From NCBI RefSeq assembly GCF_000264995.1, contig NW_006767439.1, positions 1,620,102-1,643,253 on the forward strand: a DNA stretch of 23,152 nucleotides, in the 5' to 3' direction. This document shows, in pieces, positions 1-22,263 of this stretch. Made by a program: the position numbers and the translations under genes. The DNA comes from Punctularia strigosozonata HHB-11173 SS5 (lineage: Eukaryota; Basidiomycota; Agaricomycetes; Corticiales; Punctulariaceae). Within the stretch, counting starts at the first letter, position 1. Every line of letters begins with the position of its first letter. The notes below the pieces were generated by a model. The model was not told the origin of the DNA. It worked only from the letters and a program-made list of their open reading frames with translations, and did not search any database.

Positions 1-310
1 GACTGACAGAGAGACGCTCGACCCCAAATGAACACCCGTTGGGGCTACCAACTGACCAGACAGCCGAAATGTCCGATCAATCGGCTAGAGTCGATAGGAA
101 TGGGGGTACGAGCCACACTAGACCTCAGGCTGTCACACAGCCAAGGCTAGGAAGGGAGAGGGACGATCGAGAAAAGAAGCTAGACGGCAAGTTGCAGCCA
201 GCAAAGACGCGCGCAAAGTCGATCGAGATTCAGAGTTACGAGAGCTCAGGGCTCATAACCTGATGAACTTCTGGATCTGAAGGCAAGAGCGATAATTCCC
301 TAATATATGA

Positions 311-342
311 TCCTCAGTCAAAGTATAAGGGAAAAGACTGAG
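311..342. repeat. Hairpin-forming direct repeat, copy 1
   Basis: This 32-nt unit begins TCCTCAGTC and ends GACTGAG and is identical to the copy at 430-461. Inside each unit, CTCAGTC (313-319) and GACTGAG (336-342) are perfect 7-bp inverted arms around a 16-nt purine-rich loop. Confidence 0.85.
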
Positions 343-429
343 TTACGCATGTAGTACCTAATATATGACTACAGAGGCATCATAAGTACGTTAGGACATA
401 AGGGACATGAAGGGACATGGCAGACTCAC

Positions 430-461
430 TCCTCAGTCAAAGTATAAGGGAAAAGACTGAG
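430..461. repeat. Hairpin-forming direct repeat, copy 2
   Basis: Second identical copy of the unit at 311-342, starting 119 nt downstream. Both the stem and the loop are conserved, so the copies are recent or under constraint. Confidence 0.85.
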
Positions 462-1081
462 GAGATGCGAAGGGAGAGCTCCTGGTATATGTGAGGGAGC
501 TCGAGGGAAGCATTTCCATAAAGGGAACAAAAGAATGTGCCTAAAGCGGTAATATCAATCAGGAAAGATAGAAGATCGCAAAGAAGAACACAAGAATAGA
601 ACATGTGAGAGAATCTGTACATAATAGGTAACGAGCGTGTGATATTTCCTTATATATACAATATACAAAGTTCAACAATGCTCCTAGATCTGATGAAGAT
701 GATGCATCTCCACTTCGAGCTTCGGCACCTTTGGATGAAGGCGGGAGCGTTGGCGCAAATCAGACGCTGCAATTCATTACTTACCTGGAGTGTCGTATGA
801 AGTACCGCCATCCCTCTCCACCACAGCAAGCCTGAATCCACCTCGCGCGCCACAGGCGGTGGGGCTTATCGCACGGTCCCAAATTGGTGAAGCGTGGCTA
901 CTATATGTACCGTGCTACTATGACTCCGACTTGCGATTGCAACCAGCTCGCCCCGCACACTACCAATCTGGAGGACTCGCTTAGAATCAATCAACAATAT
1001 TCAATCGTGATTGTATGCATAGAGTTACTCGATATGATCCGCATCCGAGAACTGACCCCAACAGTTCACATAGAGTTATAC

Positions 1082-4000
1082 ATGGGCACCGTCGCTGTCG
1101 TTCGAGGCCGGCGGAGATATTGGCTTGCTGCCATGGACGCGTCCATAGCTGCCTCCAGGCTAGCGCTTGACGCCCACCTGCAGAACCGGCTGCGTGATCT
1201 TGATTTGCATCATAATCTGGCAACACAACTTCTTCTTCGGTATGAAGAAGCTGGCGGCGACCAACTGATGGACGAATGCATCCGCCTGCACCGCTTATTA
1301 CTCTCGTGGACGAACCTCGGTAGGGAGCGGAGAGCGTCGGTGAAGGAGAGCCTGGCCCACGCCCTAACACTTGATTATTGGCGCACCAGCAAATCCGACG
1401 TACTTGAGGAGGCGCTTGCGCTGTCCAAGGCTGCGATGACGACGAGAAGTGATACAGGTCGCGGTCTGGCATGGCCTGCCGCTATTTGCGCGATGGCATG
1501 CAATGCGTTATTCTACAGCAATCCCGCCGGTGATGCGATCCAGCAGATGACTTCCTGCTTGTCTGCACTGACCGAGGATCTAAACACCCCGGAAGCCGAC
1601 ACACCCTGCAATTTTAGGATCCTGCGCGCTATTTCGTATTGCCTCCATCGTCAGGGGGTGGCACTCAGAAATATCCATGCGCTTGATGATGCAGTTGCTT
1701 ATGCTCGCAACACCTGCAGGAGCTGCGAAAGCATGATACCGATTGATCAGCACCGGTGTCTCTATTCTCTGGCGCAGGCGCTTTATTCGCGTTATACCCA
1801 TTTCCATACCACTCGCGAAGATCTGCATGAGGCCATCGCCTGCTATAGGCAGGCAATCGAGCATACTATTGAAGTGGTTCCGCCAAGCAGCCTCGCCACC
1901 AATCTTGCGTATGCGCTCTTAACACGCTTTGAAGACACCGGAAGCATGGACGATTTAGATGAGGTCATTCTAAACCTCCTGCCCCACGTCGGTAACACTC
2001 CATGCGGGTACGAGTGGTCCGTACGGCATGTGTTATGCATTGCGCTTTTTAGAAGGTTTGAGCGGACAGGCAACCCATCGGAGTTGGATGAAGCATCAAT
2101 TCATGCTCGCACTTGCTATGATTCGGCCAAGTCCGCCAGACGGCGCGTTGTTGGCATATCCTGGATTTGCGAGCTTTTGACTGCAGATATCCAGAGACGT
2201 AACTGGCTCAATCTTCCTTGTGATCCAGCACTTCTCTTTGAAGCATGCAAATTCAGCCGTGATTATCTAGCACTGGCTCCTCAAGGAAATCCGGCGAGAT
2301 ACGAGGCGCTTCGCCATACCGCCTACGCCTTGCAGAGGCTCGGGTCCTTGAAGGAGTCCATATCTGACCTAGACGAGGCCACCGGTCACTGTCGCGAAGC
2401 ATTGCAGCTCTGCCCTCAAGGCCATACGGATCTTGCAGAAACACATAACATCCTAGCAGATACGTTGCAATCTTATTCAAAGTTAAGCGGTGACTTGGCC
2501 CTTGTTGGAAAGGCCATTGAGCACAGGAGAATTGCTCTCAGTCTGACGGCAACCGTGCGGCCGGTGTACGGTGCCATGCTCTCCGGCCTTGCAGACGATT
2601 TCTATGCTCAGTTTCAAGTGACACGGGACAAGCACGCATCCGCAGAGTGTGTACGCGCCCATGCAAAGGCCGCCAATCATCCCTATTCCTCTATTACCAG
2701 CCGATTGAGCTACAACGAGCGATGCATCTATGTGGCAATGGAGGTGAACGACAGAACATCCATCTCCGCGGCTCATCATCAAGCAATGAATCTTCTGCCT
2801 CGAGTTGCATACCACGGAATGGATGTGAGATCTCGACTGGAGGCTCTGAAGAGCGCCCAAGGTCTTGGTGTGACAGCTGCGATACATGCCATATCCAATC
2901 AGCAACCACGCATCGCTATAGAATTTCTGGAACACGGACGAGCGGTATTGTGGAACGGCGTTCTGCAGCTCCGAAATCCTTTTGAAGGCCTCCCGGCTGA
3001 ACTATGTGTTCGATTGCGAGAAGTATCTCGTAGCCTAGACAAAGCGGGTCTGACATCATTCCGAGATACTGGAGAGACCGAAGCTTCCCGACGGCGCAAA
3101 CTCGCCGACGAGTTCGAAGAACTCTTGCAACGATCTCGGCGGATCCCTGGCTTTGAGCATTTTTTACTCCCTCCCGGGTTTGAGGATCTACGGGTAGCTG
3201 CGTCTGGAGGGCCCGTCGTACTATTGGTTGCTACAAGCGACGTGGCACACGGCATTATAATACCGTCGGATACAGAGGAGCCCTGCGTCGTTCCATTGCC
3301 CCACGTCAGCGTGTTGTGCGTGTCAAAATGGTCGGAGACACTCACGCACGCTCAGCGAAGTGCGCGCAATCGACATCATCGTGCTATACCTGGCGGAAAC
3401 TCGGAGCACGGCACCTCCGATCCAAGCAGAGCCCTAGTGAAAGTCAAGGTACCCAAACCGAATATGTCTCACGTCTTGGAGGGAGTATGGGAGAACGTAG
3501 TCATGCCAATCCTCGCCGCCTTGCAGCTTCCGGTAAGTGCTCCCGAACTCTTCACGATCCGTCGAGTTGACGCGGGAGTTCAGTATAAGCGCAACGAGGC
3601 CCGCCCTCGGCTGTGGTGGTGCCCAACCGGAAATTTCGCATTCTTGCCAATGCATGCCGCGGGAAACTCATCCGGCGTGTGCACATCTGACTACGTCGTC
3701 TCGTCCTATACCCCGTCACTCGGCGCTCTTGTCGAAGCGCGGAAGCAGCGCGACGTCAGCGTCCCTCCTTCAGCTGCCCGAGTAGTACTCGTCGCGCAGC
3801 CCAATGTCGTGGGCAACGCTACTCTCCCGGTTGCGGCGGCAGAGGTATCACAGTTAGCGACCCTGCATCCGCCCGAACAGACTATACGCATAGATCAGGA
3901 GGTGCTTGAATCGCCAACGGACCGCGGCGGGCGCAGCGCGGCAGCGGTCACGGACGTATACGAGGCGATTCGGCACGCGTCTGTCGTGCACCTCGCTTGC

Positions 4001-4454
4001 CACGCAAAACAGGATCGTGGCGACCCCATGAGCAGCGGATTCGTCCTCGAGGGTGGGATGCTGACGATAGCCGACATCGCTAGGGCTAGGATGCCCCGAG
4101 CGTTCTTTGCATTCCTTAGTGCGTGCGAGTCAGCTGCCGGAGACGAAAGTCTACCGGACGAAATCGTGCATCTCGCCGGATCCATGTTGTTTGCGGGATT
4201 CAAGTCTGTGGTGGGCACTATGTGGTGAGTACCGCCTCAAATAACAAGGAACCACCGCACTGACCCCCGAAACAGGGGAGATGTACGACTTGGATGGACC
4301 TGATGTGGCAAAGGAAGTCCACGAAGCACTGCTGAACGGCGGATACGAGGAATCCAGCTTGATCCCTCGAGCACTCGATTCCGCTGTTCGGAAGCTTCGC
4401 GAGAGAGGGCTACCCCCGGAACGGTGGGCTACCTATGTTCATATGGGTATCTGA
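1082..4454 (+). CDS. TPR-CHAT domain protein 1 (caspase-fold protease)
   Basis: Proposed exons are 1082-3532, 3584-4224 and about 4277-4454 (about 1089 residues). Residues about 30-560 form TPR-like helical repeats of the pattern LA-x-LL-x-R(Y/F)-x3-G-x4-DLDEAI. The rest is a CHAT domain with the expected catalytic pair: His957 in HLACHA (codon 4001-4003) and Cys998 in LSACES (codon 4124-4126). CHAT is a caspase/separase-like cysteine protease fold; TPRs usually bind a partner or substrate. The ATG at 1082 was chosen because MGTVAVVRG...WLAAMDASIA aligns with the start of the paralogue at 14552; the frame is open back to at least 884. Intron 3533-3583 (GTAAGT...CAG) lacks a stop and is a multiple of 3, but the paralogue has an intron at the same position. 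The last exon encodes MYDLDGP...WATYVHMGI. Its only nearby canonical acceptor (AG at 4274-4275) leaves it one base out of phase, so the gene may be frameshifted, or the base may be an error. Substrate unknown. Confidence 0.85.
3533..3583 (+). other. Stopless 51-nt intron in TPR-CHAT gene 1
   Basis: The segment begins GTAAGT, carries a branch-like TTGAC and ends TTCAG. It reads through in frame as 17 residues. The paralogue on the other strand has an intron at exactly this point (12023-12080), and after removal both proteins read LP followed by a (C/Y)K(G/R)NE(S/A)RPRLWWCP-type sequence. The match supports a real intron that could be retained without breaking the frame. Confidence 0.8.
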
Positions 4455-4589
4455 GGAAGCGATCGTAGCACTCGATGCAGGCGGCTTGACGTCGTTCAAG
4501 GCTGCAAAGTACAAGTTTGGTCAAGCTGCCAGAGCAGTGAAACGACATTCGTGACCGTAACCTTTCCACCCTCACTACTGTCGCCGGTC

Positions 4590-6292
4590 TCACAGCAGCA
4601 TCCTCCCCGCCCATCGTGGCATCGCTATACACTCCCTCACATTCTCCACGCCGCCCACCCACCCGATCAAGCGCTCGAACCCCAAGCCGAACCCGCCATG
4701 CGGCGCCCCACCGTACCTCCTCAAATCCACATACCACTCGTACGCCTCCCTCTCCAGCCCGTGCCTCCCGATCGCCTCCTCCAACAGATGCACCCTATGC
4801 TCCCTCAACGACCCGCCCGCCAGCTCGCCGAGCTGGGGCACGAGCAGATCAAAACACGCGACGGTCCGCCGGCCGTCGTCGTCGTCGTCGTCGTTGGCGC
4901 GCATGTAGAACGGCTTGAGCGCGGCCGGGTAGTCGGTCACGAACACCGGGCCGCCGACGAGCGATTCCGCGAGCCATCGCTCGTGCTCGCTCTGCAACGC
5001 CTGGCCCCACCTCGGCTCGAACGCGAACGCCCGTCCGCTCGCCTCCAGCGCGCGCACGGCCTGCGTATAGCTCATCCGCGCCCACGCCTTATCCGCCCTC
5101 GCCGCGTCTTCCAACGCCGCGCGCCGCGCTTCGTCGACCTCGGCGCCGGCGAGCGCGTCGCGCAGGACGCGCTTGACGGACCCCTCGACGACGTCGCACA
5201 CGTCCCGGACGCGGTCGACGAACGTCCACTCGGCCTCGAGCATCCAGAACTCGGCGAGGTGCCGGCCGGTTTGGGAGCGTTCGGCGCGGAAGCAGGGCCC
5301 GAGGGTGTAGACGCGCGAGAGGGCGGCGGCGAGGGATTCGAGGTGGAGCTGGGAGGAGACGGTGAGGTAGGCCGGGCGGCCGAAGAACTCGTCCGTGGAC
5401 GGTGGGGCCGGTGCTTGAGGGGTGCGAGAAGGGGAGCGGTCGGGCGACGATGGGACGGGCGAGGGGTGGGTGATGCGGAAGGTTTCGCCGGCGCCTTCGC
5501 AGTCGTTGGAGGTGACGACGGGTGTGTGGGTGTAGACGAACCCGAGGTCCTGTCGTTTTAGATGTGGGGGGTGAGGAGGTGAGGGAGATGTAAAACTTGA
5601 GGAGGGACAACGCACCCTGAAATGGTGGTGGAAGGAGGACGCGGCGCCGTCCCTGAGCCGGAGCATGGACGCGATCGCGTCCGTCTTCGTGCGGAGATGA
5701 CAGTGGTCGCGGAGGTACTCTGTCGACAGCGCTTGTTTTTGTATCGGATACGTCTACCCCATTCGTGACCGTCTCAGAGGCGTAGGCGAGCGGATACGGA
5801 CACGCTTACCTCCGGGTCGCACTCGCCGATGACATCGACCCCGTCGACCTGCAATTCCCTATCCTGCCCCTTCCCGAGGCTCTCCACGAGCCGCCCGGTC
5901 AACCGCACGCTCGCGCCGTTCGTCAACCTAGATATTACGAGACGTTATCGGCATGATCGAAGAGCGAACAACGCGGAAAGGTAACCCCCCGCATATATAT
6001 ATATATAGATATATACGCACGGTTTGGCGAGCTCGGGGTCGCGAAAGACGGCCTGGAGGCCGCGGGCGGAGCTCCCGTCGGACACGACCGCGAACGCGAC
6101 GCGTTTCTGGCGCCGGACGGATTTGATCCAGCCGTGGACCTGCACATTTTCTGCTGCTGCTGCTGCTGCTGCGGGTGGAGTGCCCGTACCGACGGGGATG
6201 CTTGGGGAGGCCAGGAGTTGCTTGATGGTCGGGGGCAGACCCGACCTGAACCCGGGCGCGGTGGTCGCGGTCGAGAAGAGACGGCGGAGCAT
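4590..6292 (-). CDS. SLM5: Asparaginyl-tRNA synthetase, mitochondrial type
   Basis: Exons on the minus strand are 6292-6021, 5927-5810, 5753-5616 and 5549-4590, giving 495 residues. The enzyme charges tRNA-Asn with asparagine, presumably in mitochondria. The N-terminus MLRRLFSTATTAPGF is basic and hydroxylated like a mitochondrial presequence. An OB-fold anticodon-binding domain follows (VHGWIKSVRRQKRVAF, then LTNGASVRLTGRLVES). The class II core has the AsnRS signatures ETYPIQKQALSTEYLR, VTSNDCEGAGE, motif 2 FRAERSQTGRHLAEFW (263-278) and motif 3 GFGLGFERLIGW (about 462-473). Oddities are a polyalanine tract from a CTG microsatellite in exon 1, a six-Asp run (4875-4892), a Pro/Ser-rich insert at about 203-227, and a 66-nt stopless third intron (5550-5615). 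A cytosolic AsnRS is less likely given the presequence and the missing N-terminal extension. The symbol is the yeast orthologue's name. Confidence 0.93.
4875..4892. repeat. GTC trinucleotide repeat in AsnRS exon 4
   Basis: Six GTC units on the plus strand encode six aspartates on the minus strand, lengthening the loop between PFYMRAN and GRRTVACFDLLVPQLG. Confidence 0.9.
5993..6015. repeat. AT dinucleotide microsatellite in AsnRS intron 1
   Basis: A run of AT repeats with one G interruption lies just inside the donor (GTGCGT at 6020-6015) of the 93-nt first intron (5928-6020). Confidence 0.85.
6151..6172. repeat. CTG trinucleotide repeat in AsnRS exon 1
   Basis: Seven CTG units on the plus strand read as GCA on the minus strand and give a polyalanine stretch between the presequence and the OB fold. 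Confidence 0.9.
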
Positions 6293-6747
6293 GGTCGGCG
6301 GTGACGCGACGCGTTGCGTTCAAATTTATCGTGTACACTGTATCACACAGGGCTTCGGTCCGAGAGTCATCGTCGTACTACATGATATAATATCATGGCT
6401 CAGAGGGCGCGTTTTTTGCGAGTCATCTTTCCTTTGGCGCTGCTGTGAATATCGTTCATGCATTACACTATGCGCGGCGCAAGGGGGGGGGATGGAGTTA
6501 CACGCAGACGGGGGGCGCATGTTCACGAAATACGCCGTGAATTTTTCTCGTTCTTTCGACGCACCACGGAGGATGGCGGGCGCGCGGGGGCAGATAGCCG
6601 AAAAAAAACACAAACACGTAGGCCTCCCCCCCTGCACCGTTCGGGACCACGGTTCTCGCCCGTCGATGGGCCCGACACCGACCCGAGGGGGCCGTCCAAC
6701 AACACGCGCAACGCGGCATTACATCGCGCGCGCTCAAGCTCCCAAAA
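6293..6747. promoter_or_regulatory. Spacer: Sm D1 3' end and AsnRS promoter
   Basis: These 455 nt separate the end of Sm D1 from the start of AsnRS, both on the minus strand. They should hold the 3' UTR of the first and the promoter of the second. No gene was recognised. Notable contents are the 17-nt palindrome at 6381-6397 about 90 nt upstream of the AsnRS start, a G run near 6483-6492 and an A run near 6600-6608. Confidence 0.5.
6381..6397. promoter_or_regulatory. Perfect palindrome upstream of AsnRS
   Basis: CATGATAT, one central A, then ATATCATG: two perfect 8-bp arms. It contains TATA-like sequence on both strands and lies about 90 nt before the AsnRS ATG, so it may be the core promoter or a dimeric factor site. 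Function is inferred from position only. Confidence 0.4.
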
Positions 6748-7440
6748 TCAGAACCCGCGTCCCCGGCCCCTCCCGCGTCCCCTCCCCCTCGCGCGGTCCC
6801 CGCGCCCGCCGCGCCCGCGCCCGCGCACGTCGTCCTTCTTCTTGCCCTTGGGCTTGGGGGCGTCGTCGACGAGGAGGGTGTCGAGGGGCAGGGCGTCGGG
6901 GAGGACGAAGTAGCGGATGTTGTTGCCGCGGATGGAGAGCGTGTCGAGGCTGACGGGCTCGCGGTTGCGCATCGACATCTTGACGGTTTTGAGGTGGGTG
7001 TTCATCTGCATGTCGACGCCTGGCGTGCCGGGGGGGCCGGGGGTGAGGGTGGTAGAGAGGGTGGTAGAGAGGGTGTGTGTTTTTGTGGTGGTGGTGGTGT
7101 TGAGGGGCGATGCGTATCGTTGGGTGGAGGGGGATTGAGGTCAGATTCGACGAGAATAATGAAGACGAGAGTGCGTTACCGGTGATGGTGCCGTGCACGA
7201 CGGACCCGTTCTTGAGCTCGATCGTCACCGACTCGTTGTTCAATTTCATCAAAAACCTATCGGGGGCGAAGAAAGAGACATCAGTACACGGATCTTTCAG
7301 GCGGAGGCATGCGTTCTGGAACCAAATCGCGCGCGCTCCCATTCCATCCAGGTTTTTTTTTGTGTTGCTCCAGCATCCCTTTGCATCCTTCCTCGATCAC
7401 GCTGGGGCGAGTCAGCTGGTACTCACCTGACGAGCTTCAT
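6748..7440 (-). CDS. SMD1: Small nuclear ribonucleoprotein Sm D1
   Basis: Exons are 7440-7427, 7256-7180 and 7019-6748 on the minus strand (120 residues; human Sm D1 has 119). Sm D1 is one of the seven ring proteins that assemble on U1, U2, U4 and U5 snRNAs in the spliceosome. The spliced protein begins [19 protein letters not shown], continues through Sm motif 1 ([20 protein letters not shown]) and Sm motif 2 ([14 protein letters not shown]), and ends in a GRG/RGG-rich tail of the kind that is symmetrically dimethylated on arginine. The first exon is only 14 nt and ends two bases into the Arg5 codon. Introns are 170 nt (7257-7426) and 160 nt (7020-7179). The tail is low in complexity but in frame to its stop. 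Confidence 0.96.
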
Positions 7441-8307
7441 GGTGGATGCCTTGGTCCTCGACGCGAGGTATTGGGGAAGAAGGGCGTGGCGAGGCGAGGC
7501 AAGGCTCACACGCAGAGCTGAGCGCCTGTAAGATGCGGCTGTGTAGCGGGCGCTTATCGTCATCGTGGCTGTGTAATGCATATTTTGGACCGAATTTGTG
7601 CCCCAATCTCGCTCTTCATGCACCCTGCTCAGTGCTCTGTCTTCGCGCCGTGCATTGCAGGATCGCGACCGGCTCAGTCCCGCCGTGCACGTATGTAGCT
7701 TTCCATCGGCAACTTTGCTATTCAATCTCGCCGCTGCGACTGTAATGCTTTCCCTCCCACGCAGATGACGATCCGGCGACCCGGCCTTTCCTTCGACTTT
7801 GCCGGGGCGTTTTGCTCGTCCCGTGGATCCGACGGGGCGCAATCGTCTCGTGTTTCTGAGTCTGACTACAGCGTCGCGCGCACCACCTCTTCCTCCCCTC
7901 TCAAAGGCTATGTGCCCCCCTCTTTCCGAAGCCCATCCCGAACGGGAAACCGAGCCCCGAACCCCATGACCTTCCCCCTCGCCGCTCCTCTGGGAACGCG
8001 TCCCCAGATAGCAGGCGCTATACCATACTTCGACCTGCGCAGGCGGATCAGCTGGTCGATCAATGATACGCCGTGGGGGCACCCCGGCGTGCTTCCTCCC
8101 TCCCGCCGCCCATTCATTCGCTTTCGATTCCGCCGCGGTTCGGCGCCCAGACTCGGACGGGGCTACCGAGTTTGGGAGGGAACGGTATGGAAACCTTGTC
8201 CGGAGCAGCGTGAGGTCCGATGACGGCAGATAAGGACCGGACGGTGCAAGCGAGGAAGGACGCGCTCCTGCCCTTTGCGCTCCTCGACGTCTACGCCGGT
8301 GGCCACT
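7441..8307. promoter_or_regulatory. Divergent intergenic region between Sm D1 and sugar transporter
   Basis: This 867-nt stretch lies between the divergent starts of Sm D1 (minus) and the transporter (plus), so it should hold both promoters. It is pyrimidine-rich, with no clear TATA box. A plus-strand open frame (7765-8223) is Arg/Pro/Ser-rich, resembles nothing I know and is probably chance in GC-rich DNA. Two hexamers fit the CreA/Mig1 consensus SYGGRG (CCCCAG near 7999, GTGGGG near 8071). Such sites could mean glucose repression of the transporter, but they are common by chance. Confidence 0.4.
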
Positions 8308-10917
8308 ATGAGCGTCCTGCAGAACATCCGCGTCTACTGTCCGTCCCCTCCTCTCCTCCTCCTCGCCGCTCGCGCTCACATGATCACCGTCCAGGGCTCG
8401 CGTTCATCGCCTACTGGGGCATCGTCCTCTTCGGGTACGACACCGGCATCGCCGGTGGCGTCGTCTCCCAAAAGTACTTCGAGACCCGCTTCCACATGCT
8501 CAACCCGGACGGCACGACCAACACCAAGAAGGCGAACGACGTCTCGTCCAACGTCGTCTCCGTCCTCCAAGCCGGCGCCTTCTTCGGCGCCCTCTCCTCC
8601 GCCCCGCTCTCCTCCCGCATCGGCAGGCGCCTTACCCTCGTCGCCTACTCGCTCGTCTTCACCGTCGGCGCCGTGCGTTCCCTGCTTTTTTTTTATTCGT
8701 CTCTCGAGTTCGCCCCTTCTTACGAGCATCGTCTCCGCAGATCCTGACGACGGTCGCGGGCGGCGGCTCGCACGGCCTCGGCCTCATCTACGCCGGCCGC
8801 GTCATCTCCGGCTTTGGCATCGGCGGCATCTCCGCCGTCGCCCCCGCCTACGTCTCCGAATGTTCCCCGAAGGACGTCCGGGGCCGCATCACCGGCCTCT
8901 TCCAGATCATGGTCGCCCTCGGCGTCATGATCTCCTACTTTATGAACTGTACGTCCCTACCTCGCTTCCTTTCACCCCCCCCCCTTCTCCCCGAGCTCCC
9001 CGCACGCACCCCCCCCCTTTTTTTTTTTCCTCTCTCGCTCACGTTTTTTTACTCGCTTGCCGGTTCCGTCAACAGACGGCATCAGCCTCAACCCCTCCCT
9101 CGCCAACTCGCCCCGCGTCTGGCGCATCCCCTTCGGCTTCCAGCTCGTCCCCGCCGGCATCATGTCCCTCGGCCTCCTCACCGTGCGCGAATCCCCCCGC
9201 TGGCTCGCCGCCGTCGGCCGCTCCCCGGACGCCCTCGCCAACCTCGCCTACCTCCGGCGCCTCCCCCCCGACGACCCCGCCGTCCGGCGCGAGCTGTCCG
9301 AGATCGAGGCCGCCATCGCGGAAGAGCGCGCCGCGCGGAGGGGGTTGGGCTGGAAGGAGGCGTTCCTCGGGCGCGGCAACTGGCCGCGGTTCGTGATCGC
9401 GATCGTGATCTTTATCCTCCAGCAGTGGTCCGGCCAGAACAGCGTCAACTACTACGCGCCCCAGATCTTTAAATCCGTTGCGTGTCTTTTTCCTCTTCCT
9501 CTCCCCCACGGAATCGAAGCTTAAAAAAATAAAAAATAAAAAACTGACATATATGCACGCACGCACGTCCCTCGCTAGATCGGATACACGGGCCAAACGC
9601 CCTCGCTCCTCGCCTCCGGCATCTACGGCGTCGTCAAGCTCGTCTCCACCGCCCTCTTCGTCTTCTTCCTCGTCGAGTCCCTCGGCCGCAAGCTCTCCCT
9701 GCTCGTCTCCGCCCTCGGCATGGGCACCTTCTTCTTCATCATCGGCGCCATCCTCAAGACCCACCCGCCGCCGCCCGCGCCCCCCGCCGGCGGCTCCCCC
9801 TCCCACCCGCCGCGCGCGAGCCAGGCGATGGCGGGCATGATTTACATCTATGTCTGTTTTTACTCGATGGGATGGGGCCCGCTGCCGTGGGTGTACGTGA
9901 GCGATATTTTCCCGACGCGGACGAGGCATTACGGGCTCGCGACGGCGAGCGCGACGCAGTGGCTCTTCAGTGCGTCTTTCGCGTCCCCCTTCTCTCGCAT
10001 GGGAGGGGGGGGGGGGGGGTTTTTTTTCGTTATCGTTCGTTTGTGTTCTNNNNNNNNNNNNNNNNNNNNNNNNNNNNNNNNNNNNNNNNNNNNNNNNNNN
10101 NNNNNNNNNNNNNNNNNNNNNNNNNNNNNNNNNNNNNNNNNNNNNNNNNNNNNNNNNNNNNNNNNNNNNNNNNNNNNNNNNNNNNNNNNNNNNNNNNNNN
10201 NNNNNNNNNNNNNNNNNNNNNNNNNNNNNNNNNNNNNNNNNNNNNNNNNNNNNNNNNNNNNNNNNNNNNNNNNNNNNNNNNNNNNNNNNNNNNNNNNNNN
10301 NNNNNNNNNNNNNNNNNNNNNNNNNNNNNNNNNNNNNNNNNNNNNNNNNNNNNNNNNNNNNNNNNNNNNNNNNNNNNNNNNNNNNNNNNNNNNNNNNNNN
10401 NNNNNNNNNNNNNNNNNNNNNNNNNNNNNNNNNNNNNNNNNNNNNNNNNNNNNNNNNNNNNNNNNNGGGGGGGGGGGGTGGTTTCTTATCGTTCGTTTGT
10501 GTTCTCCCCTCTGATATATAAAAAAAAGACTTTGTGCTGTCGAAGGTGACGCCGACGATGGTGACCAACCTCGGCTACAAGCTCTTCCTCATGTTCGCCA
10601 CCATCAACATCGCCGGCATGGGCACCTTTGCGCTCCTCATCCCCGAGACCAAAGGACGTGCGTTAGCCCACGCTATCCCTCCCCCCCCTCCCCCTCCCCC
10701 TCTCCCTCTCTTTTCTCTCTCCTGTACAGCTTGCTGACGCTTTTTTTTTTTGCAATTCGGGTGGTTAGGCTCGCTGGAGGAGATGGACATTATATTCGGC
10801 GCGGTGTCGGCCGAGCAGCGCAGGGAAGATGTCGAGCGCGTCGAGCGGGAGATGGCGCATGCGGTCCAGGGCGTGACGAGCCACAGCAGCGAGGACGAGG
10901 CGGCGATGAAGGTGTGA
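8308..10917 (+). CDS. MFS sugar porter (hexose/quinate permease-like)
   Basis: Exons are 8308-8338, 8395-8672, 8741-8948, 9076-9476, 9579-9969, 10529-10657 and 10769-10917, giving 528 residues, the usual size for a 12-helix sugar porter. It should import a monosaccharide by proton symport at the plasma membrane. Signatures in order: MSVLQNIRVYWLAFIAYW, GIVLFGYDTGIAGG (TM1, 19-32), RIGRR (loop 2-3), GFGIGG...PAYVSECSP, VRESPRWL, QQWSGQNSVNYYAP (from 288), ESLGRK, GWGPLPWVYVSDIFPTRTR, and PETKGRSLEEMD at the end. The ATG at 8308 has A at -3 and splices in frame to TM1. A Pro-rich loop (KTHPPPPAPPAGG) precedes GMIYIYVCFYS. The assembly gap lies wholly in intron 5: exon 5 ends TTC-A and exon 6 starts AC-TTT-GTG, restoring NFVLSKVTP. 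Introns are full of homopolymer runs. Sugar specificity cannot be read from sequence. Confidence 0.94.
10050..10466. other. Assembly gap (417 N) in transporter intron 5
   Basis: The unknown bases are flanked on both sides by a long G run and then by the same 20-nt sequence (10030-10049 and 10486-10505). No exon appears lost, because the coding frame closes across the intron. Confidence 0.95.
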
Positions 10918-11150
10918 TTTGTATGTGTGTATACGTTTGTACGATATATCGAGATGAGGGGGTAATCGGGATGGTATGTGTGCGTGATTATCTGTCGTTG
11001 GCCTTGTCGCTGTACGCCTTTCAGGTTTCGAAGACGGCACCAACGATGAACCACGAAACAGTGAACGCCAAAAGTATAATCAAGGCAACGGTAGGACAAT
11101 CGATGCAGAACACGAACAGAAAAGACCTCAACGTCGGCCCAGTGGCCCCA
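10918..11150. other. Convergent 3' spacer, transporter and TPR-CHAT 2
   Basis: Only 233 nt separate the two stop codons. It should contain both 3' UTRs; I see no gene and no clear polyadenylation signal. Confidence 0.5.
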
Positions 11151-14100
11151 TCAAATACCCATGTGGACATACGTGGCCCATCGCTCCGGAGGTATCCCTC
11201 CCTCACGCAACTTCCTGACGGCGGAGTCGAGCGCGTACGCGATCAGACCGGGATTCTCGTATCCCCCGTTCAGCAGCGCTTCGTGGACCTCCTTCGCCAC
11301 GGCGGGCCCGTCCAGGTCGTACATTTCCCTTTGCATCTGGGTTTAAGTCGCGGTGTTTCCTCATGACTGACGCAATGTGCTCACCACATGGTACCCACTA
11401 CGGACTTGAATCCGGCGAACAGCATCGATCCGGCCAGGTGCACGATCTCGTCCGGAAGACCTTCGTCTCCGGCGGCCGACTCGCATGCGCTAAGGAAGGC
11501 GAAGAACGCCCGGGGCATCCTGGCTCGCGCAATGTCGGCTATCGTCAGCACCCCTCCCTCCAGAACGAATCCGCTGCTGAGAGGGTCGCCGCGATCCTGC
11601 TTTGCGTGGCAAGCGAGGTGCACGACGGATGATTCGCCCATGGCCTTGCACACATTTTCCACCATGCTAGCGTCGTGATGTTTGACCTCCCCTGGTGGTG
11701 TATCACGAATCTTCTGATCTATGCATATCAGGCGTCCAGACTGATACATGCTCGCCAACTGGGAGATTTCCTCCGCAGCCATCGGCAGAGGTGCGTTGCC
11801 TGATACATTTGACTGAGCGACGAGTAAGACTTGGGCATCTGCCGAAGAGACGATGCGTTGCTTCCTTGCTTCCACTAGAGCTCCGAGAGATGGGGTATAA
11901 GAAGAGACCACGTAGTCCGAGGTGCATGCCCCCGATGACATGCCCGCGGCGTGCAGTGGCAAAAATACGAAACTCCCGGTCGGGCACCACCACAAACGAG
12001 GACGTGATTCATTCCCCTTGCACTAATCATCGTTAGCTCAGATATATTCAGTCACCTTGTGCGGATCTTCAATGACTTACTGGAAGGTTCAAGGAGGTCA
12101 GAATCGGGCACACGACATTCTCCCATACTTCCTGCAGTACGTGCGAGGTCCTTGCTATGTATGTTGGCTTGATCTTGACTATATAACGATTCGTCTCAGC
12201 GCCATTTCCGGCCAGAATAGCCATTTCCCCTAAGCTCTGGCGACTTCGCGCAGCTCGTTGAGCATGCGAGAGTGCCTCCGACCATCTTGATATGCGAAGA
12301 ACGCCAACCTGGGGTAACGGCACGACGTATGGCTCGGCGGCCGCCGACGGCATTACGATGCCGTACGCCAGAGCATCTGTGGCCATCAGCAACACCACTG
12401 GGCCTTTTGATGCCGCCTGACGCAGTTCCGCGAATCCTGGGGGAACAAGGAAGCGCTCGAAGCCTGGAATGCGACGAGACTGTTGTATAAGCTCTTCGAA
12501 CTCGTCGACCAACCTGCGTCGTCGTGATGCTTCGATCTCGCTTGTAGTGTGCGACAAATCTAACCCCGCTGCGTCTAGGCTTGAGGATACCTCGCGCAAA
12601 CGGTCTGACAGTCCCGCCGGGAGACCCTCGAAAGGACTGCGTAACTGCAAAAGACCGTTCCAAAGGATTGCACGTCCGTGTTCCAACAATTCTATCGCGG
12701 TCCGTGGCTGCTGAATGGACATCGCGTGCGCCGCGGCTTCTAAAGCGAACCCTTGGGCGCCTTTGAGAGCCTTGAGTCGAGCTCTCGCATCCATCCCGCG
12801 GGAAGCCACCAGAGGGAGAAATGACATCGCCCTTTCGTGACCTGCAGAGATAGAGGCTGCATCGTTCATCTCCTTTGCCACTGCAATGTATCGCTTGTTG
12901 AAGCTAAGCCGATGGAATATGGAGGAGTATGGATGATCCACGGCGCCCACCCAAGCCTGCATGCATTCTGCATAATCACCCTTGTTCTGTGTAATCTGGA
13001 AACGGGCATACAAATCCTCGGCAAGGCCGGAGGACACCGTGCCGTATAACGGCTCAACGATTGGCGCACGTTTCAAGGCGATGCTGCGATGCTCAATAGC
13101 CTCGTCGACAAGTGTGTGGTCGCCGGTCAAAATCGAGGAAGACTGCAGTATGTCCGCTAGGATGGTATGTGTATCTCTCTGCTCCCCATGTCCAGGAGGG
13201 CATAGATGCAATGCTTCTCGACAGTGATCCGCAGCCTCTTCGAGGTCGGAGATCGACCCTCGAAAAGCGCCAAGCTTTTGCAGGGAATATCCGATGTAGC
13301 AAAGGGCCTCGTATCGTATAGGAGTTCCCGGAGGGCATAATGCCAGGTAATCGCGGCTCGCACTGCAGGCTTTGAGGAGGAGTGGCTCGCTACAAGGGTA
13401 TCCTAACCATCGCTGCCTCTCGATCTCTGCAGCCAGAAGCACGCAAACCCAGCTGAGACCAAGACGCCGCTGTTCCAGAGACTTGCTCGTAGTGTAGCAT
13501 ATTCTAGCGTGAGATGACGCCTCGTCATAATCCGCTTGGGCACCCAATCGCTCGAACCTTCTGAGTAACGCTATGCACAATCCAAGTCGCGTATACCATT
13601 CCTGTCCGAAATTGGGCGAACCTACACAAATCCCAGCCCGCAGCATTAGAATGACCTCGTCCAGGTCCTCCATAAGCCCTGTGTTTTCGAAACGCCTCAG
13701 CAGCACGATAGCTAGGGCCCTACGAGTCAAGTTCGGAGGAACCACTTCGGTAATCTGTTCCATGGCCTGCCGATAGTAGTTGATGGATTCGTCCCGGTCA
13801 TCGCAAGCGGTGTGGAAATGGGCATATCGAAGCCAAAGTGCTGAACCAAGACTGGCAACGAACCGGTGCCGCAATATATCTGTAGTTGCGCACGCACCAC
13901 AGGCCTCGCGAGCGTGAGCAATGACATTGTCCACAGCATGAATATCTCTGTCCACCAATATCCGAACAACGCGGCGACGCACGAGAGCATGGAGAGCCTT
14001 TGCTCTCTCTAGAACAGTTGCGTCGTCCGAGCTGGTTAATCTATCCTGAATAGCGGAAATACACAGTGTCGTTTCTTCGACTGTTCCGTCATTGTCGTTC

Positions 14101-14552
14101 CCTGGAAACATTTGCCAGTAAAGCGCCATTGTCGTGACCCGGACAACCGCGGCCGATGCTAGACCGTACCCTAGAGCTTTTCTAGCTGTCATCGCAACCT
14201 GCGAAAGATCAAGGGCTTCTAAAATTGTGTCGGTATCATTGGTTCTAAAATAATGGAGGCTTAGGGCATAAGCAAGGTCTTCAATCGTCATCGCCTTCCG
14301 TTCCGCATCGAGCTCGTCGTTGGCGAGTAATGAGCGATATAGGCGGATGGATTCGTCTAGCATTTCCTCCCCGCCAGCTTCTTCATACCGCAGACAGAGC
14401 TGTGTTGCTAAATTGAATTGTGTGGCCTGACTCTCCAGCAAGTGTGGTGAGGCGGAAACGAGCATTCGCCGAGCGGCAGCGATAGACGCATCCGTGGCAG
14501 CGAGCCATGCTCGACGCTTTACTCTGATATTGATGACGGTGTTGGTGTCCAT
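11151..14552 (-). CDS. TPR-CHAT domain protein 2 (caspase-fold protease)
   Basis: Exons on the minus strand are 14552-12081, 12022-11385 and 11328-11151, giving 1095 residues. It is a close paralogue of the protein at 1082-4454, with the same architecture: about 600 residues of TPR-like repeats (for example RYEEAGGEEMLDESIRLYRS, RFENTGLMEDLDEVILMLR), a linker (LEHGRAILWNGLLQLRSPFE), and a C-terminal CHAT domain with His963 in HLACHA (codon 11608-11606) and Cys1004 in LSACES (codon 11485-11483). The 41-residue spacing of the pair equals that of protein 1. Intron 1 (12080-12023, GTAAGT...TTAG, branch-like CTAAC) has in-frame stops. Intron 2 (11384-11329) starts GTGAGC. Reading frame requires the AAG acceptor at 11331-11329; the CAG 8 nt upstream would give a stop at once. 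The start aligns with protein 1. It is likely a regulated intracellular protease; the substrate is unknown. Confidence 0.9.
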
Positions 14553-14771: not shown

Positions 14772-14829
14772 TTCAGGATGCGAGGTCATTAGTGCTGCCG
14801 CAGGGTGCGGTAAGGTGAGGTGAGGTACG

Positions 14830-15993
14830 TGTCCAACAGCATTACGTGCGCAAGCGCTCCGACGCACATACCGTTGCCAACACGACTTTGCCATCCGCTC
14901 CAAAATTGGTGACTTGCGCCCCGCCGACGCGTTCAAGCTGTATATGGCAAGAGTCGACCCTAACTTAGTGCACGCCTGCGAGATTGCCCTTGACATAGAC
15001 CCTGTCCTGCTGAGGCGACTGGAAAGCGTACAATTCAAGTTCGTTCGTCGCGCGCTCGGCCTCTCGTCACGATCACACACAGCAGTGCTCTTCACGGAGA
15101 CTGGCCTGATGCCGCTACGTCACCGCCGAGTTATCCTTGCGCTCCGTTACCTCGTCCACCTCCTCACCATTCCTCGCGGTCGCTACGCATCTTTGGCGTT
15201 ATACAAATCCTTCGAGCTTGCCAACGCCAACGTCCAATGCTGGATATCGGACATTCGTATCGTTCTAGCGGCGTTACCCGGCATGCCTGACGCTTGCGCC
15301 CCACCCGTTGCATGCCTCATGGACCCCCTGCAGGTGGATGAGCTCATCAAAACCGTGACTGCGGCCGTCGACATCTGGCTTGTCCAGCGTATCAACGATT
15401 CCCCCAAGCTCATTATGCTCAGGGATCATGTACATATCGGCAAGAAAGGCGAGGTAACGCGCCCTGTGCGATGCTTCCGCAGATATCTGACCATCACCGT
15501 CGCAACGCATCGTATAGCTACCACGAGGATGCTCGTGTCCGACCACTCCTTGGCCATTGAGCGTCTGCGCTGGGCAGAAAGGTATCACCCGAAAGTCCCC
15601 AGGGAATGACGACTCTGCCGATTCTGCGAGGCCGCTATAGAGGATTCGGGTCATCTCTTGCAATGTGATGCATCCCCTGAACTCTGCGATCTACGGATCT
15701 CGTTCCTCGCCACAATATGCACGATTCGCCCATCCCTGAACGCCCGGCTTCGGGAGCCTGGCGACTTCCTCATGTGGGCGACCGCTGACCAGGCGTGCGT
15801 GGACTACGTCGGTCAATTCCTGCGGAACGCTTTGCGGATATTCGATGCCGCTCCACCCTTTTACCCTGCGCATATTACGCACTCAGTCCCGCCTCCCCCT
15901 ACCGTGGGGACCTTACACGGCGACTTCGAGGTTCGAGAAGGCGAGGGTTCCAGCGACGATGAGGTCGACCCCATTGCCAAAGCGGAGGAATAA
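14830..15993 (+). pseudogene. LINE (non-LTR retrotransposon) ORF2 C-terminal fragment, broken
   Basis: One reading frame runs from about 14830 to the stop at 15991-15993, interrupted once by TGA at 15607-15609. The translation matches the region downstream of the reverse transcriptase palm in fungal LINE ORF2 proteins: YMARVDPNLVHACEIALDID, RRALGLSSRS, LFTETGLMPLRHRRVILALR. Just after the stop comes a zinc knuckle, C-x2-C-x8-H-x3-C (CRFCEAAIEDSGHLLQC, 15619-15669). Endonuclease and palm motifs are absent, so the copy is 5'-truncated, as LINE insertions usually are. The stop probably replaced a tryptophan or arginine codon just before RLCRFC. The exact left end is unclear. The acidic tail to 15993 may be element-specific. 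Confidence 0.8.
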
Positions 15994-17848: not shown

Positions 17849-18577
17849 ATGGTCTTCTCGCGCTCCTCGCTTTTCTTCACCACCATCGCCATTGGCTCTG
17901 CGCTAGCCGCACCCATCACACCGAACTCTGCAGACGCGTCTACCATCACCTCGAACGGCTTGGCGTTGACCGCCTCGACTTCGACATCCGTGCTTCCCAC
18001 CACCGTCTTCACCGACGCGGCCACCACCACTACCGAGGAAGGCAGCTACACCATCCAAACCAGCCCCGCCAGTCCGGACGAATCATACGAACGCAGTTCC
18101 GCGCCGCCCAAGTCGACGAGCGGTCCCATCCCCGCCGCATTCGAAGACATGACCGTCGTCGGCATGGGTGGCATGTCGACCACGGACGCCATCGCTGCCG
18201 CGCCGCGTCCCACCAACCCTGCTCAGCTCTTCAAAGTCGCCTCTCATCCGAACTCCGACAACGACGATACGACTCTCCTCCCTTCGCTGGCGTTTGAGCA
18301 ACCATCAGCCGCGCCGACAATGACGTCCGCCTTCGACGACTCGTCGGTGTCAACCATTGGCACAATGTCGACGTCCGATGTCACATTCACGTCGGCGCCA
18401 ACCACATTTTCCCGGGACATCATCCCGGCCGAATTCGAGGGCTCGTCTGTGCTGAGCATAGGGACCATGTCGACCACGTACACTAGCTTTGAATGGGCGC
18501 CTGAGGCGACCCTCGCCCCATCCATTTTCGAACAGCTTTCGGTGACTTCCCTGGGTGGAATGTCGACCACGGATTAA
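17849..18577 (+). CDS. Secreted Ser/Thr-rich protein with four 16-residue repeats
   Basis: This single-exon gene encodes 242 residues. The first 21 form a clear signal peptide (hydrophobic LFFTTIAIGSALAA, likely cut before APIT or PITP). The mature part is rich in Ser, Thr, Pro and Ala, has no cysteine that I can see, and should be heavily O-glycosylated if secreted. It carries four copies of a 16-residue motif: FEDMTVVGMGGMSTTD (98-113), FDDSSVSTIGTMSTSD (162-177), FEGSSVLSIGTMSTTY (196-211) and FEQLSVTSLGGMSTTD (227-242, the exact C-terminus). No Lys-Arg sites separate the repeats, so it does not look like a Kex2-processed repeat precursor. No GPI signal is evident. I recognise no family. 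A TATA box sits 109 nt upstream. It could be a cell-wall or extracellular matrix component; that is inference. Confidence 0.8.
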   Translation: MVFSRSSLFFTTIAIGSALAAPITPNSADASTITSNGLALTASTSTSVLPTTVFTDAATTTTEEGSYTIQTSPASPDESYERSSAPPKSTSGPIPAAFEDMTVVGMGGMSTTDAIAAAPRPTNPAQLFKVASHPNSDNDDTTLLPSLAFEQPSAAPTMTSAFDDSSVSTIGTMSTSDVTFTSAPTTFSRDIIPAEFEGSSVLSIGTMSTTYTSFEWAPEATLAPSIFEQLSVTSLGGMSTTD

Positions 18578-20433: not shown

Positions 20434-21861
20434 GCCGGCTGGAGGTCGAGAGGATATATAACGAGGTCGAGGTGGACGTCGCAGACGATGACGGTGTGAG
20501 CGGCCGGCAGTGGCGCAGCCGAGCACCGCAGTTCAGGACGGTTCAGGGCTGACAGCGAGGTCAGTGTCAACTACGTTGGTCAGTGCTGCACTGCCATTGA
20601 TCCCATGTTGCTCTCGACGACCGACGACGCCGGACTCGATATTCCGGAGCTGCAACGCTACCGAACATCCGCATGTAGCCTTTTGATTCCCTCTGGTTGG
20701 ACGGAATGAACGAATCATCAAGAGGATGTGCAATGCTAGCGACCGCACACTGGGTATCTGTCACCGCCCTGCGCATAACGGCACCGCCTTGCATGTCTAT
20801 AAAAATATGACTTCGGTGTTTATGCATTATGCTTGAGTCTTGTTACGGCGTCATGTTTCCGGAAGGCTCATATCAGCGAAACACTTCTCGAACTTTTACG
20901 CGCGAAGAAATCGGGCACGTACTCTAGATCAACGAGAGCATGCACGGCCACATCTGCCCTTCTGTTCATTAACTGGTGGTAGCAAGCAGTTCATATGTAT
21001 GAATGGGATGTTGAGCTAGCTGTGTATCCTGGTGGAAGTCTGGTGGGCGCTTCATTTTTTCTGGCTCATTTGAGCCTTCGATGTGGTTCCCTATTAGCAC
21101 TGTGATGTCGAGGCATCCGCATCAAACGTGCTCAGAAACCAAGAAATCAGTCTATCATCTGCCGCATGTCCTCGGTCTGCGACACAGCCCCCACACAAGC
21201 AGGAACATCAATGCCACTGTCTAGCCCGTATCCACCGGATCCCGGTGAATTCACGGCAGTGTGGGAATCATGAACATGCCACCTTGTCCAGATCTGCGCA
21301 TATAACGGGGCGTGTCAATGTCGCCTCGAGTTCCCTGCATTTGCTATCGCCCTCCCCGATCCATGTCCAGACCCCTTTCGCAAATCATCTCTAACGATCG
21401 CTCCAATCTTTGTCTCGCGCCCGCCCTCGCCCGGCATCGTGTCTCCTTCTGCAGTGGAACAGACTGCACATGACTGGCGCTCGCCAGGTCCAGTGGGCTG
21501 CAAGGCACTAGCCCTGTTGTCAACTGATTCCTCAGAATTGTGGGAAAGCAGATCGTGCGCGCATCGCTCACTGCCGACGAATTACTGCGCTCAGGCCCAA
21601 GCGCGCTCATGGTCCGTGTGTTCTGCGACGAAGACTTCAAGTACGATGTCTGCGTGCCATGCACTGTCACGCAAACTGTAGTGCTAGTATATAGTCACAC
21701 AGTTGCCTAGGGTCCCGGTCTATCTAAGTCAGGGATGACCTAGTTGAATCAGGAGAAAGAAATGGGCCGCTTGAATGTATTCACATAAACAGAGAACTAC
21801 ACTCTGTCCTTTTGTCTGTACTTGACATCTGTTCCCACGCTTATGGGGAAGTCACTGAATA
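20434..21861. other. Gene-poor region upstream of VTI1
   Basis: About 1.4 kb with no recognised gene. The part nearest 20433 should hold the VTI1 promoter; a TATATAT run at about 20454-20460 is only some 20 nt from the ATG and is more likely in the leader. Short frames at 21128-21394 and 21344-21681 on either strand lack family resemblance. The DNA becomes AT-richer after about 21700. Confidence 0.45.
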
Positions 21862-22263
21862 TGTTGTCAGTCTTCTGGGAGCGTCTTGTCACTCTATCTT
21901 CTGGAAGCATCTTGTTGCTTCAACGTATCCTATTTCCTATATCGTATGTCCTGGAGTGATACTTAGATCTATTGCCTAAGTCAACACTCAAATGTTTTCT
22001 TAATCTTGCTCTTGCTGCTTAATACTAATAGAGACTGATCTACAGTCTCCTGTGATCGATCGTTGATTCTGGGTGAAAGTGAATTGATTGCTTCAAAGGG
22101 CTCATATGCCCTCCTTTTATGCTAATTTGGCCAATACCACTCCATCCAATCAGATCACAGGCTTACTAAGCACCTGCTGCGCCACAGCATGCTTACTAAT
22201 ATCCGCAGTAAGCTTACTAACCTGCACAGCCTTGCAACACAGCCCTGTGATACCATAGCAACA
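21862..22263. mobile_element. LTR-like block (possible solo LTR, minus orientation)
   Basis: A 402-nt AT-richer block begins TGTTG (21862) and ends CAACA (22263), the short inverted ends usual for Copia-type LTRs. On the minus strand it contains a TATA-like ATAAAAGG near 22120-22113. It carries three GCTTACTAA copies (about 22162-22220) and a 22-nt imperfect direct repeat (from 21871 and 21898). The flanking 5-mers (GAATA and TGTCT) do not match, so no target-site duplication supports it, and no gag or pol sequence is adjacent. The call rests on structure alone. Confidence 0.45.

Follow-up and report, generated by a model that had tools for sequence, protein, structure and literature searches.

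Two convergent TPR-CHAT genes of Punctularia strigosozonata as probable members of an old and much expanded family of predicted cysteine proteases

The stretch of DNA analysed here (the window) comprises 23,152 nucleotides of contig NW_006767439.1 of Punctularia strigosozonata HHB-11173 SS5, positions 1,620,102 to 1,643,253. It carries two genes, here called A and B, each predicted to fuse a superhelix of tetratricopeptide repeats (TPR) to a CHAT domain. The favoured reading, with a probability of roughly 0.6, is that A and B are birth-and-death members of a large and old family of regulated TPR-CHAT cysteine proteases. Their identity as regulated TPR-CHAT proteases is very probable, and they are ordinary members of an already known protease architecture; the chances that they serve in cell death or a non-self response, argued by analogy, are about even. 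The facing arrangement of the two genes is best seen as an accident of birth-and-death evolution: as a pair they matter little, and the size of the family in this genome is of more interest.

Predicted fold and catalytic dyad

The two genes are convergent, starting at 1082 on the forward strand (A) and at 14552 on the reverse strand (B), with their ends 6.7 kb apart (Table 1). The first two exons of A align with B at 57% identity across 1040 positions, and both introns are at matching sites. The CHAT model PF12770, for which the Pfam cut-off is 24 bits, scores 86.3 bits in A and 93.8 bits in exon 2 of B. From the second histidine of the motif HLACHA to the cysteine of the motif SAC there are 41 residues in both proteins, the codons in A being at 4001-4003 for histidine and 4124-4126 for cysteine (His955 and Cys996 in the spliced model). 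The initial annotation had described two paralogous TPR-CHAT genes in opposite orientation, sharing this spacing and both intron positions, and on all of these points it is confirmed.

The structural predictions agree with this picture. The AlphaFold model of A has 31 helices spanning residues 4-686, which form the N-terminal TPR array, and the predicted structure contains a two-lobed fold of the caspase/separase type, with a structural match to separase. The His-Cys dyad of A and B aligns with residues 585/627 of Craspase (7x8a_D). The structural check proposed in the initial annotation thus gives the expected His-Cys pair in a caspase/separase-like fold, and the models support the description of A and B as predicted CHAT proteins with a catalytic dyad, fused to a TPR superhelix. 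The CHAT domain reaches the C-terminus in B, while A ends early by the splices tried. A sequence search of the PDB with exon 1 of B alone found no match. The only tandem repeats in A and B are short arrays, with units of up to 10 bases.

Family size, the 3' end of gene A, and selection

At least 80 matches to PF12770 were found in the genome, at 78 places after merging of pieces less than 2 kb apart. Sequence was examined for 24 of the 78 places, of which 23 span the dyad region; the remaining one, L015, is a fragment and was left unscored. The histidine and cysteine are kept at a spacing of 41 in all 23 genes, and in all 23 the last intron follows directly on a [GA]T[ML]W motif that closes the CHAT exon. 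Because they occur throughout, the spacing and the last-intron site do not mark the A-B pair, and they are rejected as the specific tie between A and B that they had been taken to be: they are constants of the family. The same constancy makes it highly improbable that the resemblance to CHAT is structural only and the domain a dead pseudoenzyme scaffold. Protease activity is predicted only, which would suit such a scaffold, but the fixed dyad and a rate of nonsynonymous substitution (dN) of 0.02 between A and B in the last 82 codons argue against it. In one paralog (L026:6121) the last intron apparently has a GC donor.

The 3' end sets A apart. In a scripted test of the 23 genes, the family donor site alone was joined to AG acceptors lying about 30-130 bases downstream, and any join that met a stop in fewer than 20 residues was discarded. 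An in-frame join yielding the conserved tail, which ends W-A-x-x-x-H-x-G and is recognisable also in many bacterial relatives, was found in 22 of the 23 distinct genes, A being the sole exception. Its best spliced score is 22; read in a different frame, the tail scores 259. Its usual CAG acceptor leads to nine foreign residues and then a stop. For intron 1 of A, the alternatives of 51 nt, 66 nt or no splicing also keep the frame. Gene B reads as intact. Since the last exon of A could not be joined in frame from the family donor, the two genes are not both intact as read; the initial annotation overlooked this defect. As judged from the reading frames, A probably lacks the conserved C-terminus, through either a recent frame break or a one-base error in the assembly. 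Any real break must be recent, because the last exon is still well conserved (259 against the tail of B, compared with 239-267 for intact close relatives). This conservation also fits a gene A that is in fact intact, its break being an assembly error, and there are gaps and homopolymer runs in the assembly around here; but the base run at the site itself is short, and this explanation, while quite possible, falls somewhat below even odds. Assembly errors are less usual in short runs.

The C-terminal halves of A and B are 67% identical, compared with 68% for A and L029 and 66% for B and L029, and the three are about equally related. L029 (L029:3423-5351, at the end of contig C7) lies on the same contig about 140 kb from A. 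It is a TPR-CHAT copy without the N-terminal TPR half, the remaining frame being open and constrained. A, B, L029, L020 and L023 form one clade (support 100/97) whose inner order is unsettled, and four of these five lie roughly 210 kb or less from the end of contig C7. In a tree of 21 of the 23 fungal genes and 11 of the 17 bacterial loci, those that span the domain, the five-member clade is placed beside bacterial rows with weak support (85/52), for which reason no transfer is claimed.

It is very unlikely that A and B form a linked functional pair of a non-self locus, kept by selection as sensor and executor or as two specificities. They are indeed close paralogs with neighbouring ends, and adjacent CHAT pairs less than 20 kb apart are commoner than expected at random (9 against 3.1, P 0.003, the expectation ignoring contig ends). 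However, local duplication can explain this excess, the nine pairs are mixed (five tandem, one divergent and three convergent, namely A/B and two others), L029 is at least as close to A as B is, A probably lacks its C-terminus, and a comparison of neighbouring pieces of open reading frames (ORFs) found no partner gene. Nor are the flanks of A and B homologous, sharing only short, chance-like words. The facing pair, which accounts for 2 of the 78 places, therefore does not stand as a unit, and its orientation is not rare enough to require a cause.

Between A and B the rate of synonymous substitution (dS) is about 1.3 and dN is 0.33, with a dN/dS of 0.25; in the last 82 codons dS is 0.96. These rates indicate an old duplication and purifying selection on the active-site region. 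Gene conversion is not supported, dS being near 1 where protein identity is 95-97%, and nor is diversifying selection, as no segment of the alignment has dN/dS above 1 where computable, several segments being saturated.

The best guess by analogy is that the family members are latent proteases switched on through the TPR arm. In a mechanism modelled on Craspase and the Podospora pair described below, the TPR arm would bind a ligand or partner, which would release the CHAT domain from inhibition and let it cut a specific protein; the most likely outcome would be regulated cell death, or stress or non-self signalling. The initial annotation had suggested regulated proteases of a cell-death or self/non-self system. 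The predicted fold, dyad and TPR superhelix uphold the protease part of this; the cell-death part is plausible from published cases, the genes here contributing no evidence of their own.

Several observations weigh against the favoured reading. Three other paralog pairs are old (dS 1.5-2.2) and under overall purifying selection (dN/dS 0.12-0.14, tighter than A/B), with no segment above 0.32 where computable, a constraint that looks unlike the fast diversification of immune-type genes. The gasdermin model PF04598, which may miss fungal gasdermins, has no match in the genome at E values up to 1. An all-against-all comparison of ORF pieces from 21 fetched CHAT stretches (L009-L029), L031 and the window, judged by eye, gave no recurrent non-CHAT neighbour family, introns weakening the test; it recovered only CHAT genes, frames over or beside CHAT genes, overlapping fetches and repeats. 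Finally, the passage cited links TTC28, a putative TPR-CHAT homolog in humans, to cytokinesis (PMC12314368), so that a housekeeping role is possible for some members.

The old paralogs under purifying selection, the match to separase and TTC28 would all suit a family of housekeeping or developmental proteins, regulators of the cell cycle or cytoskeleton like separase or TTC28, with no part in immunity or death. We consider this unlikely, though worth serious thought: at least 78 places, including truncated and broken members, would be unusual for housekeeping genes, and both of the characterised fungal CHAT cases found act, in the published passages cited below, in cell death or incompatibility.

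Within the reading of a birth-and-death protease family, the numbers invite a further and distinctly tentative suggestion. The roughly 78 TPR-CHAT places far exceed the matches to NACHT (23, of which 18 are above the cut-off) or to the metacaspase-type C14 (2), and neither gasdermin nor HET was recognised, although for HET (PF06985) the control was also silent, so that absence is not shown. The family might thus feed undescribed effectors of cell death or defence, with an unchanging active site and a TPR arm that senses a different cue in each member. The family shows that TPR-CHAT proteases can expand into a major class within a single mushroom-type genome, and their targets, if not gasdermins, are a testable question. 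The gene structure and content of this genome point to an agaricomycete. Mushroom-forming fungi commonly carry large CHAT families. Literature searches, which turned up reviews, a survey of fungal NLRs (PMC9815663), the A. fumigatus study cited below, a further overview (PMC9119436) and unrelated bacterial papers, found no report of a CHAT expansion in basidiomycetes, which proves little.

Neighbouring genes and transposons

Ten ORF pieces of the window were scanned with Pfam, and the only matches were to tRNA synthetase, LSM, sugar transporter/MFS and SNARE models; no gasdermin was among them. The initial annotation had also seen none and placed the substrate elsewhere; the genome-wide search, with its weak model, did not locate it. 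The asparaginyl-tRNA synthetase, Sm D1 and sugar transporter genes that it named between A and B correspond to matches to a class-II synthetase, to LSM (below the cut-off) and to Sugar_tr. An assembly gap with poly-G flanks (10050-10466) lies inside an intron of the transporter gene.

Table 1. Coordinates of features in the window.
Feature	Position	Strand	Basis or remark
Right long terminal repeat (LTR) of retrotransposon upstream of A	261..677	.	100% identical to C7:1614176-1614592 (L031:1977-2393)
Gene A exon 1, N-terminal TPR superhelix and start of catalytic half	1082..3532	+	Open frame; helices of AlphaFold model
Gene A intron 1 (57 nt)	3533..3589	+	GTAAGT donor; site matches B intron 1
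Gene A exon 2, CHAT domain	3590..4224	+	PF12770, E 3.2e-24
Gene A intron 2 (GTGAGT...CAG)	4225..4275	+	Site common to other genes checked
Gene A last exon, conserved, out of frame with exon 2	4276..4454	+	Splice-join scores
Asparaginyl-tRNA synthetase-type gene	4590..6300	-	PF00152 (class-II D/K/N), E 1.9e-58 for 4590-5753; 3' exon matched, 5' extent by eye
LSM/Sm-type gene	6734..7444	-	PF01423, E 8.4e-4 for 6734-7396, below Pfam cut-off; extent by eye
Sugar transporter gene	8384..10917	+	PF00083 (Sugar_tr), E 4.9e-16 for 8384-9472; extent by eye
Gene B last exon, in frame	11151..11328	-	Completes B protein of 1095 aa
Gene B intron 2 (56 nt)	11329..11384	-	Last-intron site of the family
Gene B exon 2, CHAT domain, catalytic His963 and Cys1004	11385..12022	-	PF12770, E 1.6e-26
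Gene B intron 1 (58 nt)	12023..12080	-	Matches A intron 1 site
Gene B exon 1, TPR superhelix and start of catalytic half	12081..14552	-	Open frame

The two LTRs of the retrotransposon upstream of A are each 417 bases long, with TG...CA ends and a 5-base target duplication (ATGCT). Their identity suggests a recent insertion, which may affect the promoter of A. The element between them is about 6.6 kb, copia-like by eye and in part a gap, and ends 404 bases before the ATG of A. There are 19 matches to the LTR in the genome, one of which lies some 230 bases away from a further CHAT match (C1:74127). Beyond the element, to the left of the window, are frames resembling kinesin by eye; three left-flank ORFs have no Pfam match.

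Just upstream of B (14824-15993) are remnant frames that by eye resemble the C-terminal part of a non-LTR retrotransposon, the first having no Pfam match. Further on are a frame for a short protein that begins like a signal peptide and contains several G-x-M-S-T repeats (17849-18577, no Pfam match) and an apparently dispersed repeat (21665-22004), 89% identical to L022:8967-9323, L022 entering a run of N just after. Of the 16.6 kb that follow the window on its right, 14.8 kb were sampled and consist entirely of N.

Comparison with known systems

TPR-CHAT proteins are known from CRISPR-linked bacterial defence, from a gasdermin pair in Podospora and from an incompatibility gene in Aspergillus. 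The two-gene cluster of P. anserina, as summarised in the passages cited, pairs a gasdermin with the TPR-containing CHAT protease that activates it (Clave et al. 2022, cited in PMC12881547 and PMC10197012). A and B share with it the TPR repeats, the CHAT cysteine-protease domain and a filamentous fungal host; the gasdermin partner gene, however, is present there, whereas here none is recognised in the window or, by the Pfam model, in the genome. Fungal gasdermins are described as clearly more abundant in Ascomycota (PMC10197012). The hetB gene of Aspergillus fumigatus, also a large fungal CHAT protein, is presented as a CHAT idiomorph with a demonstrated role in incompatibility (PMC11138114); it is one locus with two unlike alleles, whereas A and B are a pair of paralogs known from one genome.

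In Craspase (TPR-CHAT/Csx29 of type III-E CRISPR), non-self RNA, once bound, is reported to bring the dyad into position, and Csx30 is cleaved (PMC9729208). Identity to it is 12-15%, A has about 350 extra residues on the N-terminal side, and the Pfam matches beside A and B include no Cas gene, neither Cas7-11 nor Csx30 being recognised among the ten ORF pieces scanned. The nearest prokaryotic relatives found are actinobacterial TPR-CHAT proteins such as that of Streptomyces sp. SID14436 (L039), with 34-38% identity over CHAT in the nine best full-length rows and 29% over 686 positions for L039; they differ in having no introns.

Expansions of TPR-CHAT genes are already known outside fungi, from two coral genomes, both Acropora, for which the cited passage gives 276 and 304 genes (PMC12314368). 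These corals are metazoan, with more copies and extensive tandem duplication, but the architecture is the same, and there too the expansion in a eukaryote is driven by duplication.
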